NCBI RefSeq assembly: GCF_001412655.1
Contig: NZ_CP012996.1
Coordinates: 2,480,001-2,544,000, forward strand
Direction: 5' to 3'
Length of the DNA stretch: 64,000 nt
Origin: Pedobacter sp. PACM 27299
GTDB taxonomy: Bacteria; Bacteroidota; Bacteroidia; Sphingobacteriales; Sphingobacteriaceae
Shown: positions 53,436 through 56,837 of the stretch, one piece after another
Position numbering within the stretch: position 1 is the stretch's first letter
How the letters are laid out: each line of letters opens with the position of its first letter
The notes under the pieces: generated by a model
What the model was told of the DNA's origin: nothing
Databases searched by the model: none
What the model saw: the letters and a program-made list of their open reading frames with translations, nothing else
Made by a program: the position numbers and the translations under genes

Positions 53436-54149
53436 TTATAGGAGGAGTCCACCTCCATACTTGTCGAAAAAGTCGTGCTTATAGACTTCTCCGATCGGTA
53501 TTTCGAATTCATCGATATAAATCGTATGGTTGTCAAAGGAATCGATAAAGCTTACGTTCACTACATAAGATTTACTCACTCTCAGGAAAGTACTGGCAGG
53601 AACTTTTTGGTGTATATTTTTTAGGTTCATGGCCGTGATTAACTTTTCCTTTTGCGTGTAAATGACTACATAATCTTTAAGTCCTTCAATAAATCTGATG
53701 TTTTTAAAGTTTATTTTGTGGTATCTCCGTTCTGATTTGATCATCAGAAAATCTTCATTACTTCCTTCAAAGGTGTTCTTTGCACTCTCTGTAAGCAACT
53801 TTTTATAAGTCAGGCTTTTGAGAATTGCTTTTTCGAGCCTCCTCGGCTCAATGGGCTTTAACAGGTAATCTAAAGCATCCAGTTCATAACTTTTTAAAGC
53901 ATATTGTGCATAAGCAGTGGTGAATATGAGGAGCGTTTGACCCGATATCTGAGCGGCAAAGTCCAGCCCATTTAATTTGGGCATTTCAATATCGAGAAAG
54001 ATCAGGTCAACAGTATTGGTTTTCAAAAAATCTAAAGCAGACAGGGCATTTGAAAAAACACCGCTGACTTCCAATTCAGATAATTCCCTGACCATGATCT
54101 GCAATTCCTCCCTGGCTAATGGCTCATCATCTACGATTATACAGTTCAT
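53436..54149 (-). CDS. LytTR-family response regulator
   Basis: The protein has 237 residues. The N-terminal receiver domain has the acidic start NCIIVDDEPLAREELQIMV and phosphoacceptor Asp in DLIFLDIEMPKLNGLDF near residue 54. The C-terminal LytTR DNA-binding domain has DFLMIKSERRYHKINFKNIR, FIEGLKDYVVIYTQKEKL and FLRVSKSYVVNVSFIDSFDN. LytTR proteins bind tandem direct repeats. The gene overlaps the kinase gene by 4 bp (ATGA) and is cotranscribed with it. The repeats upstream of the kinase gene are candidate targets. Confidence 0.93.
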   Translation of the reverse strand: MNCIIVDDEPLAREELQIMVRELSELEVSGVFSNALSALDFLKTNTVDLIFLDIEMPKLNGLDFAAQISGQTLLIFTTAYAQYALKSYELDALDYLLKPIEPRRLEKAILKSLTYKKLLTESAKNTFEGSNEDFLMIKSERRYHKINFKNIRFIEGLKDYVVIYTQKEKLITAMNLKNIHQKVPASTFLRVSKSYVVNVSFIDSFDNHTIYIDEFEIPIGEVYKHDFFDKYGGGLLL

Positions 54150-55222
54150 ACTGGAATGGTTAAATTTACTGAATATTCATGCTCATCAGACGTTTGAGCA
54201 AGGTGATATTGCTGCTGATAAAGCAGTTCCAGCCGTCTTTTAATATTACTCAGCCCTAATCCACTGTATTTTTGATCTGCAATTACTTCATCATTGTTTT
54301 TAGAATTAGTACAGCTGAAATATAAGCTGTTCTGCTGAATATTGATTTCAATATGAATATAGGCCTCCTTTCCACTGATGTCGACGCTATGTTTTACCGC
54401 ATTTTCGACAAATGTGGTAAACAGATTGGGTGGAATAAACACACTTCTGGAAGCTAGCTCGGCAGCCTGGGTATTGATCTGGAAACTGAAATTGTCTCTT
54501 CTGATCTTTTCCAGGTTTAAGAAATTGGAAATGAAACTGATCTCAGAAGTCAAAGCAGTATTTTTCTCATTATTTTCGTAGAGTTGATACCTTAGAAATT
54601 CGGAGAGTTTGAGGATGACTATCGAAGCCTTTTCAGGGTTTGTCCTGATGAGTGCTTTGACATTATTCAGCATGTTAAACAAAAAATGTGGATTAATTTG
54701 GTTCTTCAGTTCGTTCAGTTCCATCTGGAGGGTCAGCTCATTGAGTGCGGAAATCCTATCGTTGTCATTGATCCACCTTTGCAGGAGCTTCACCGTGGTG
54801 GTGAGCAGGATGATGGGGATGGTGATCATCGCACCTTCATAATAACTTTTGGTTCTGTGGTAATTTTTTTGGAGCTGCAGGTTTCGATGTGACTCTATGA
54901 TTTCCAGGATATATCCTGTGCAAAAGAGGCCCGTAAGGACCAGGGCGATCAGCAGTAGCAGGTAGGTAACATATCGGGCTTTAAAGAAAAATATTGGAAC
55001 CAGCACGTACATATTGACATAGAACATCACGATGAAAACCGTGTATATACATATCAAACGTTGATATCTGTAAATTCCTGAGAACTCATTTGAAAAATCA
55101 GAATAATAGAACAGCATAAAAAGTCCGATCAAAAAACCTGCATGACGTAAAAACCGATAGCGGTCTTCAGAGAGGAAATTGATGATCTGTTTGTTCTTGA
55201 GCTCTGGTGTCTGGCAATTCAT
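54146..55222 (-). CDS. LytS-type sensor histidine kinase
   Basis: The protein has 358 residues. The N-terminal third has four hydrophobic helices (FLRHAGFLIGLFMLFYYSDF, VFIVMFYVNMYVLVPIFFF, LLLLIALVLTGLFCTGYILE and AMITIPIILLTTTVKLLQ). The His_kinase domain follows: phosphoacceptor in QINPHFLFNMLNNVKALIR near residue 195, then an ATP domain with FTTFVENAVKHSV (N box) and GLGLSNIKRRLELLYQQQY (G box). It senses at the inner membrane and pairs with the LytTR regulator. The signal is unknown. Confidence 0.93.
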   Translation of the reverse strand: MNCQTPELKNKQIINFLSEDRYRFLRHAGFLIGLFMLFYYSDFSNEFSGIYRYQRLICIYTVFIVMFYVNMYVLVPIFFFKARYVTYLLLLIALVLTGLFCTGYILEIIESHRNLQLQKNYHRTKSYYEGAMITIPIILLTTTVKLLQRWINDNDRISALNELTLQMELNELKNQINPHFLFNMLNNVKALIRTNPEKASIVILKLSEFLRYQLYENNEKNTALTSEISFISNFLNLEKIRRDNFSFQINTQAAELASRSVFIPPNLFTTFVENAVKHSVDISGKEAYIHIEINIQQNSLYFSCTNSKNNDEVIADQKYSGLGLSNIKRRLELLYQQQYHLAQTSDEHEYSVNLTIPV

Positions 55223-55284
55223 TGGCTAAGGATTTTATGTAAATCACAAAGGACAAAAGTAAAGTATATCTGGCTGCCACGAGG

Positions 55285-55371
55285 ATAATTATACCAAACC
55301 GGTTGTTTATTATATCAAATTTTACCGGGCGCTGGGTTTGGTATAATAAACAACCGGTTTGGTATAATAAA
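55285..55371. promoter_or_regulatory. LytTR-type operator: four copies of a 16-bp element
   Basis: On the plus strand GGTTTGGTATAATAAA occurs at 55335-55350 and 55356-55371 (period 21 bp, identical). On the minus strand the same element occurs at 55285-55300 (14 of 16 match) and 55306-55321 (13 of 16), again 21 bp apart. The two pairs point outwards, one to the kinase gene and one to the three-gene operon. Positions 55291-55314 and 55342-55365 are a perfect 24-bp inverted repeat. The tandem spacing suits LytTR dimer binding. Confidence 0.75.
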
Positions 55372-55421
55372 ACAATAGCAATCCAAGTATTTTGTTGCTT
55401 TGCGACTCATTATTCAAATCT

Positions 55422-55867
55422 ATGAGTGTGGAGAAGTTCCAGAATTTAGCCGAACAGATTGTAGCCTGCCCTTGGTTAGGAGCAGATCAGCAGGAAGAAA
55501 AAATAACTCAGATTGCCGACCTGTGCCGCTTTATTTCCAGCTATAAACCATCGATCGATATCGAGGATGCGTTCAGTCATAAAATTAATGTCATCGAGGA
55601 CGAGGGGATCAGAAAGGGCGTCCTTTTTTGTGATTCCAAAGGTTTAACGCTCGGGCATTTGATTTTTCACTCTTTAATGCTGTGGCCTTAAAAGCCTTTA
55701 AAACCAAGGCAAGTATTGAGGAATTATGGATAGTTTTTATTGAGGATAAATGGAGTAGAGCGGAACATCAAGCTACCAATATCCCGGAAAAAAGAAGCGT
55801 TGCTTCCTTTTATGATAAAATATTCTGTTTCGATTTCTTTCAATCTAAAATTCACGCCATAAAATAA
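55422..55867 (+). pseudogene. Uncharacterised gene with a single-base frameshift (LytTR-linked)
   Basis: Two frames together make a protein of about 148 residues. The first (from ATG at 55422) reads SVEKFQNLAEQIVACPWLGA, then INVIEDEGIRKGVLFCDSKG. The second, in another frame, reads NARAFDFSLFNAVALKAFKT and ends SFYDKIFCFDFFQSKIHAIK. One added T in the GGTTTAAC run (about 55643-55645) joins them as ...CDSKGFNARAFDFSLFNAV.... No family is recognised and no signal peptide is present. It is the first gene of the divergent operon that follows the LytTR operator. A true loss or a homopolymer sequence error are both possible. Confidence 0.65.
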
Positions 55868-55871
55868 TTAT

Positions 55872-56837
55872 ATGCCTGTTTATAATAAAGCGACATTAGT
55901 GTTCAGTGTTTTAATCTTATCAAATGTAATCGGCTTTGCTCAGAAAAGAGACAGTATTCCTGAAAAAGCAAAGGCTTTTATTGCCGATAAATTTCCTATG
56001 GCCAGGGCGCTCAATCTGGAATATAATCTGGTTAGCCCATACTGCTATACTTCGAAGTTTTTCGGAACAGCGCAGCCTGAAGGCAAGGTAGAAAGCCTGT
56101 ATCAGCTAAAGGCCAGTGTCAATATCAATTTCATTACGAGTAAACAATGGTCGTTGGGAACGATATTGGGTTATCGTTACGTTTCTGCAAAGTTGGAAAA
56201 TACCCAGGAAAGAAAAGATTTTCATTACCATTCCGAATCACTCAACCTCAGTCGCTACTCCAAACTTTTTGGCAAAACAGCCATTTATACAGCTAGTGCT
56301 GTGGTGGATGGCTCCGAACGGCATTTTGAGAGGCTGAGGGGGGTGCTAACGGCTACTTTGGTACTGAAAGCGACCAGAGCAACACAAATGACATTGGGGT
56401 TGATCGGGTTTGTCGATCCTGGAGCACTGGTTCCTGTTGTACCTTCCTTTAGTTATAAACATCAGTTCAATGGTGGCTGGATTGCAGATGTGATTTTGCC
56501 AAAGGGCCTGCTACTGCGGAAAAATGTGCTGGAGAACGGCCGGGTCTCTGTTGGCACTGAGTTGGAAAATACATTTTTCTACCTGTATGGCCTGGACAAT
56601 ACGGGTAAAACTTACAGTTTGAATCAGATGGAAATCAACTCCGGACTCACCTATGAACATTACCTTGGGAATTCATTTGTAGCCACATTCAGGACAGGGA
56701 TGAAAAATGTGGTTGATGCCAAGATATTTGAAAAAAGTGAGGCGCAGCGCGATTACATTTTTAAGGCAAGTCCTGAACCCTCACTTTACTTTAATGTGGG
56801 ATTATCTTTCAATCCTTTCGGCAAGAAAAAGAAATAA
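55872..56837 (+). CDS. Outer-membrane beta-barrel protein (DUF6268-like)
   Basis: The protein has 321 residues with a signal peptide (LVFSVLILSNVIGFAQ). The mature part has regular alternating strands (MARALNLEYNLVSPYCYTSK, VESLYQLKASVNINFITSKQ, SWSLGTILGYRYVS-type) and ends in ...YFNVGLSFNPFGKKKK with aromatic belts. It fits the DUF6268 group of Bacteroidota outer-membrane barrels; this call rests on pattern only. It starts 4 bp after the preceding frameshifted gene and is followed 22 bp on by the HMA-like gene. It is probably controlled by the LytTR pair. Confidence 0.78.
   Translation: MPVYNKATLVFSVLILSNVIGFAQKRDSIPEKAKAFIADKFPMARALNLEYNLVSPYCYTSKFFGTAQPEGKVESLYQLKASVNINFITSKQWSLGTILGYRYVSAKLENTQERKDFHYHSESLNLSRYSKLFGKTAIYTASAVVDGSERHFERLRGVLTATLVLKATRATQMTLGLIGFVDPGALVPVVPSFSYKHQFNGGWIADVILPKGLLLRKNVLENGRVSVGTELENTFFYLYGLDNTGKTYSLNQMEINSGLTYEHYLGNSFVATFRTGMKNVVDAKIFEKSEAQRDYIFKASPEPSLYFNVGLSFNPFGKKKK

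Follow-up and report, generated by a model that had tools for sequence, protein, structure and literature searches.

Outward-facing pairs of a short repeat between a LytS/LytTR gene pair and a DUF6268 gene form a predicted bidirectional LytTR operator in Pedobacter sp. PACM 27299

The window (the whole stretch of 64,000 nucleotides that was analysed) contains a LytS-type sensor kinase gene and a LytTR response regulator gene, overlapping by 4 bp, on the minus strand, and a small ORF followed by a gene for a DUF6268 family protein on the plus strand. The intergenic region between the two divergent sets holds four short boxes, arranged within an inverted repeat and flanked on both sides by a predicted -7 box (Table 1). 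The nearest named relatives of the DUF6268 protein are those of Pedobacter gandavensis (73%). The small ORF is split in the window, with the first frame stopping at 55691 and the other frame running to 55867; intact relatives of 148 aa are found in genomes G142 and G081 and among database proteins, and the split is either a strain-specific break or a sequencing or assembly error. The small protein gave no Pfam match above a cut-off. In G142 the small ORF is followed by an alpha-L-fucosidase gene and the four boxes are kept, with no DUF6268 match in the stretch searched.

Table 1. Positions of the genes, boxes and predicted promoter elements in the window.
Feature	Position	Strand	Description
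LytTR response regulator	53436..54149	-	237 aa; PF00072 and PF04397 (9.5e-17); proposed box binder
LytS-type sensor kinase	54146..55222	-	358 aa; His_kinase PF06580 (3.6e-23), HATPase_c_5 PF14501
Predicted -7 box TACTTTTG	55254..55261	-	TAnnTTTG; lytS-lytTR promoter, 26 bp past box 1
Inverted repeat, 32 nt	55288..55368	.	arms 55288-55319 and 55337-55368, 97% complementary, 17-nt gap; holds the four boxes
Box 1 TTTGGTATAAT	55288..55298	-	lytS side, promoter-proximal
Box 2 TTTGATATAAT	55309..55319	-	lytS side, distal, 21 bp off box 1
Box 3 TTTGGTATAAT	55337..55347	+	DUF6268 side, distal
Box 4 TTTGGTATAAT	55358..55368	+	DUF6268 side, proximal, 21 bp off box 3
Predicted -7 box TTGCTTTG	55395..55402	+	divergent promoter, 26 bp past box 4; one mismatch to TAnnTTTG
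Small ORF	55422..55867	+	148 aa in close relatives; two frames in the window
DUF6268 family outer-membrane beta-barrel	55872..56837	+	321 aa; conserved divergent target gene

A mismatch search of the window with GGTTTGGTATAATAAA finds two exact copies on the plus strand (55335-55350 and 55356-55371) and two degenerate copies on the minus strand, one with 2 mismatches (55285-55300) and one with 3 (55306-55321). An earlier note on this DNA had called the feature a four-copy 16-bp element; the four copies are indeed present, but the conserved unit is only 9-11 bp long, TTTNGTATAAT, with a 9-bp core TTNGTATAA and 12 nt between the cores. Within each pair the period is 21 bp, the pairs point outward, and the boxes together span 55288-55368. 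The minus-strand pair points to lytS and the plus-strand pair to the divergent genes, so the arrangement described in the earlier note, two outward-facing tandem pairs of which one faces the LytTR/LytS genes and the other the divergent operon, is confirmed. Its comparison with the spacing of known LytTR sites also holds: according to PMC4847170 such sites consist of two repeats, each 9-11 nt long and set 11-13 nt apart, a range that includes the 9-bp core and 12-nt gap observed here. In repeat length and gap the element thus has the properties of a LytTR operator, and a LytTR-domain gene (PF04397, 9.5e-17) is linked to it.

Searching 145 genomes of the genus for the regulator identified 48 further loci, 18 with 60-82% identity and 30 with 41-54%, and all of them were analysed, a box pair being called at the 21-bp period with up to 2 mismatches per box. 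At the 19 orthologous loci, with the window counted, pairs fill 33 of the 38 strand slots, and all four boxes are present in 15 loci, the remaining 4 missing the four-box call. The 30 distant loci have pairs in 28 of 60 slots and four boxes in 8 cases; the word therefore belongs to one branch of the LytS/LytTR systems and not to this gene alone. In 100 dinucleotide shuffles the mean number of pairs was 0.03 for the 19 loci and 0.02 for the 30 loci, with a maximum of 1 and no four-box arrangement. Of the 19 orthologous loci (window counted), 17 are adjoined by a DUF6268 gene and a further one, L093, by a match of 34 residues; none was found beside the orthologous locus L092, nor beside any of the 30 distant loci.

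In the wider family, 201 genomes were searched and 20 of the 23 new places were analysed (G253, twice, and G313 were left out). Ten orthologues with 57-71% identity show DUF6268 in 9 of 10 stretches; at the genus cut-off the lytS-side pair is found in 7 of them, the other pair in 6, both in 5 and neither in 2. The other ten family loci, at 51-56% identity, gave no DUF6268 match. The lytS-proximal box was compared over 29 orthologous loci by picking the best-scoring pair at each locus, which favours the motif; positions 2, 3 and 5-10 (TT-GTATAA) are the same in 29/29, and positions 1, 4 and 11 vary.

A scan with the DUF6268 alignment, with one genome per species, yielded 130 relatives, and the analysis went on with the best 80. 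The loci of this set come from several families and represent Chryseobacterium (40 of 80), Sphingobacterium, Flavobacterium, Chitinophaga, Pedobacter and others; since the set partly overlaps the genus and family genomes (e.g. L317 and G249), the sets are not independent. Among these best 80 of 130, a divergent kinase or regulator gene is present in 77 loci, a pair towards DUF6268 in 75, a pair towards lytS in 76 and both pairs in 73, with 7 loci missing one or both, and each of the 12 genus-level groups has at least one locus with both pairs. When the spacing was scanned from 12 to 44 bp with at most one mismatch in all, 21 bp was found in 74 and 74 of the 80 loci (best 80 of 130), and the only other spacings over this range were 24 (1 locus), 41 (2) and 42 (1). 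No pairs at 21 bp occurred in 50 mononucleotide shuffles of the 80 loci. Of the best 80 of 130 loci, 52 contain a small-ORF homologue at some position; in the roughly 17 loci for which positions were given, it directly precedes DUF6268. In one Mucilaginibacter, whose L237 and L317 were treated as a single contig on account of their equal length and a common site, the kinase and DUF6268 sides are pulled apart; there is a kinase-side pair (1 mismatch), a DUF6268-side pair (1 mismatch) and a 2-mismatch pair between them.

Bacteroidota promoters have TAnnTTTG as their -7 element. For Bacteroides the -7 box is given as TATCTTTG (Table 3 of PMC6193735). The predicted -7 boxes lie 26-27 bp past the proximal boxes on both sides, in the window and in most relatives, which places the pairs just upstream of a predicted promoter, as for a LytTR operator. 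At the genus orthologues, TAnnTTTG with at most one mismatch occurs 26-29 bp from the lytS-side pair in 17/17 cases and 26-27 bp from the other pair in 13/16. In the best 80 of 130 loci a perfect T[AT]nnTTTG stands exactly 27 bp off the pair in 58 of 75 cases on the DUF6268 side and in 69 of 77 on the lytS side. Elsewhere between 10 and 44 bp in this set it is observed on the lytS side at 26 (1), 28 (3), 29 (1), 32 (8) and 41 (1) bp, and on the DUF6268 side at 32 (2) only; over the whole range of 10-44 bp a perfect -7 box is missing for 17 of the 75 DUF6268-side pairs and for 3 of the 77 on the lytS side. In respect to the -33 element, TTG at a gap of 19-22 before the -7 box was found in 0/73 and 0/74 cases (147 distinct promoter sequences from the best 80 of 130 loci); at gaps of 15-18 the counts are 11/73 and 12/74, and at 23-24 they are 0 and 7. 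With TTG missing at the usual gap, the promoters should depend on an activator. The geometry suggests mirrored, activator-dependent promoters on the two sides, serving lytS-lytTR and the divergent set, respectively.

The single 16-mer is not rare, and the unusual part is the paired arrangement. With up to 3 mismatches the window contains 4 single 16-mers against 1.2 expected, and 3 of 100 shuffles reach 4; with up to 2 mismatches the genome contains 10 (3 at the locus) against 13 for a reversed-pattern control. The pattern TTTGRTATAA-N11-TTTGRTATAA, searched exactly, is found twice in the 6.15-Mb genome, both times at the locus; at 3 mismatches there are 13 further genome matches against a control total of 16, which is the control level. 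A chance origin of the boxes is ruled out by the genome controls and the shuffles. The repeats and their period are conserved at homologous loci, as the proposal of the earlier note had required (33/38 slots in the genus, both pairs in 73 of the best 80 of 130). Its further expectation, that the pattern would be rare elsewhere in the genome, fails for the single 16-mer, which is as frequent as its control, but stands for the 21-bp pair. In the 145 genus genomes the exact pair gives 36 matches against 0 for the reversed control, and 13 of these are at LytS-type loci (two each in G000, the window's genome, and G142). The other 23 comprise 19 inspected loci beside an AraC-type gene and 4 uninspected ones that are AraC-like by sequence.

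The Pedobacter sp. PACM 27299 genome encodes 19 LytTR domains. For the 18 other LytTR loci the start of the operon was guessed from the ORFs, and the 21-bp box pair (at most 3 mismatches per box) is present in 0/18 within 300 bp upstream. The boxes combined with a -7 box at 26 bp, with at most 3 mismatches, match only this locus in the genome (control 0); with the -7 box at 27 bp there is one match here and one at 4219422 (3 mismatches), which was set aside as unconvincing. A wide regulon in this genome was considered and ruled out, further sites being absent at the cut-offs used; on sequence grounds the regulon would consist of this intergenic region alone. One of the other LytTR loci (L205, 950396-950596) carries a different direct repeat with 21-bp spacing (TTCAGCCCAT) about 110 bp upstream of its first gene, and this could be a further LytTR operator that uses a different word.

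We consider it highly probable that the element is a bidirectional LytTR operator, serving autoregulation and the control of the divergent genes. The boxes, their period, the position of the -7 boxes, the conservation and the gene linkage are established by computation; binding, activation and phosphorylation are the steps that we infer. The LytTR regulator (53436-54149), presumably phosphorylated by its LytS partner, would bind each 21-bp-spaced TTTNGTATAAT pair, with one pair serving each promoter. Once bound, the regulator would attract or assist RNA polymerase carrying the housekeeping sigma factor, at a TAnnTTTG box located 26-27 bp downstream. The left promoter would then yield the kinase and the regulator, giving positive feedback, and the right promoter the small ORF and the DUF6268 outer-membrane barrel. 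The suggestion of the earlier note that the boxes are the operator of the regulator encoded next door is therefore supported, as a prediction, by the conservation and by the specificity within the genome, and the fixed position of the -7 box adds a mechanism that was absent from it.

Repression by the LytTR operators, or activation of one side and repression of the other, appears improbable. Some LytTR regulators are described as repressors, PlnD being an example, and the divergent -7 box of the window is TTGCTTTG instead of TAnnTTTG, so that the two promoters may differ in strength; however, the pairs stop equally far upstream of the -7 boxes and leave them uncovered, and the missing TTG at the gap of 19-22 also argues against repressed promoters.

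Binding of the repeats by some other regulator, e.g. of the AraC type, with an incidental LytTR linkage, is less likely again. It is suggested by a conserved AraC locus of the genus (19 loci, including L041, L044 and L045), mostly beside a putative SIP gene, in which the same core occurs twice, 21 bp apart; Pfam searches covered two of the AraC proteins and a single SIP protein, whose match lies just under the cut-off. At these AraC loci an exact second inverted pair within 150 bp is found in 0/19, and the -7 box stands at 20-21 bp in 18/19, in contrast to 27 bp at the LytS loci; for these two reasons the AraC-linked element is taken as separate, and its own regulator could be the AraC protein. 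Moreover, in many genera it is the LytS/LytTR gene pair that accompanies the boxes. The same core, equally spaced, beside AraC genes does mean that the word alone is no proof of LytTR binding, and as the distant LytS/LytTR loci share the word, with several such loci possible per genome, another LytTR protein could bind in place of the neighbouring one.

The 32-nt inverted repeat had not been recognized in the earlier note. That it acts as a hairpin or cruciform, or is the remnant of a mobile element, with the boxes a mere by-product, is hardly credible: as single-stranded DNA it folds far better than shuffles (-30.6 vs -9.1 kcal/mol, z -8.6), but near-identical arm spacers are confined to three genomes whereas the boxes are widely conserved, and the pair has no other copy in the genome. 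An RNA hairpin or attenuator was also rejected, with pairing seen in three genomes only and the repeat lying upstream of both predicted -7 boxes, from which it should for that reason not be transcribed.

The predicted bidirectional LytTR operator has a further property in the subclade of the window. Comparing the 10-nt spacers of the two arms gives 10, 10 and 9 identical positions out of 10 for G000, G142 and G081, respectively; the other 26 loci give 1-5 of 10, one of the pairs being poor in a few. When one arm was set against the other arm of another genome, 812 comparisons gave an agreement of at most 8 of 10. Where the spacers of the three genomes differ from one another, positions 4, 5 and 8 are changed in both arms alike, and position 6 is changed in both arms of G142 and in a single arm of G081. 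The mirrored changes involve the arms of the window (55288-55319 and 55337-55368) together with loci L092 and L093. To judge from these alignments, the arms seem to evolve in concert. Templated repair across the palindrome would explain the mirrored changes, three genomes being few, and selection for equal spacers may also account for them. As a tentative extension, which we regard as possible but rather doubtful, the four boxes may form one coupled switch, in which the LytTR pairs cooperate across the centre and both promoters fire together, the arms of the subclade being kept alike by palindrome-templated repair. If this is true, the two halves of a bidirectional promoter would be undergoing concerted evolution.

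The AgrA box differs in sequence from the box described here, and the agr system and this locus differ as well in promoter type, kinase type and target. The likeness to agr P2/P3 of Staphylococcus aureus concerns the layout only: there a LytTR regulator binds direct repeats that directly precede a pair of divergent promoters, which drive its own operon and an effector RNA, and SarA sites lie between the repeats (as described in PMC4227749); the present locus likewise has pairs for two divergent promoters, of which one is predicted to be autoregulatory. The agrBD peptide-signal genes (the agr P2 transcript is agrBDCA) are absent among the neighbours LytS, LytTR, small ORF and DUF6268, and the locus is not classed as agr.

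The kinase and regulator are of the same type as in YpdA/YpdB and BtsS/BtsR of Escherichia coli. YpdB binds a direct repeat of GGCATTTCAT (according to PMC4847170), and each of the two systems has a corresponding target gene (according to PMC5552118); these targets, yhjX and yjiY, are transporter-type genes, and the box differs from that observed here. Against the BtsR equivalog model (NCBIfam PRK11697.1) the regulator scores 134.8 bits, below the cut-off of 246.

In the LRS-like operons of Bacteroides thetaiotaomicron and B. ovatus, 11-bp direct repeats with 11 bp between them precede LytTR genes and lie upstream of a TATCTTTG -7 box, presumably for autoactivation (as described in PMC6193735). 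The period is 22 bp there and 21 bp here, and the LRS-like -33 element (TGTA/TGTG) stands 19 bp before the -7 box and 11 bp after the repeats; the excerpt of PMC6193735 used here does not describe a divergent second pair. An LRS combines a LytTR regulator with an inhibitory membrane protein. In those operons LytTR is partnered by a membrane protein that carries NfeD-like and DUF2154 domains (PMC6193735), in place of which the present locus encodes a sensor kinase (His_kinase PF06580, 3.6e-23).

A search of open-licence PMC titles and abstracts found neither the motif nor LytTR together with DUF6268, which is no proof of absence. We rate spaced-repeat LytTR sites and the divergent plan as already known; the box, the gene module and the mirrored Bacteroidota geometry appear to be new. 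For a two-component system that occurs in several Bacteroidota families, the analysis predicts the recognition word and the promoter geometry precisely. It also ties the DUF6268 outer-membrane barrel, whose name occurs in one of the papers searched, to a dedicated sensor, and one 97-bp site lets signal, regulator and target be tested.

The box pair was also searched together with the -7 box, with 2 mismatches, in 60 genus genomes, giving 32 matches against 17 in the control, which is too noisy for counts; with the distance fixed at 27, this pattern could not find the site of the window (26). Three of its matches (G102:C58:116679-116745, G032:C4:219729-219795 and G029:C1:917331-917397) comprise box pairs and a -7 box with 1-2 mismatches over the whole pattern. 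These box pairs lie directly downstream of LytTR regulator genes, which suggests further LytTR-driven genes.
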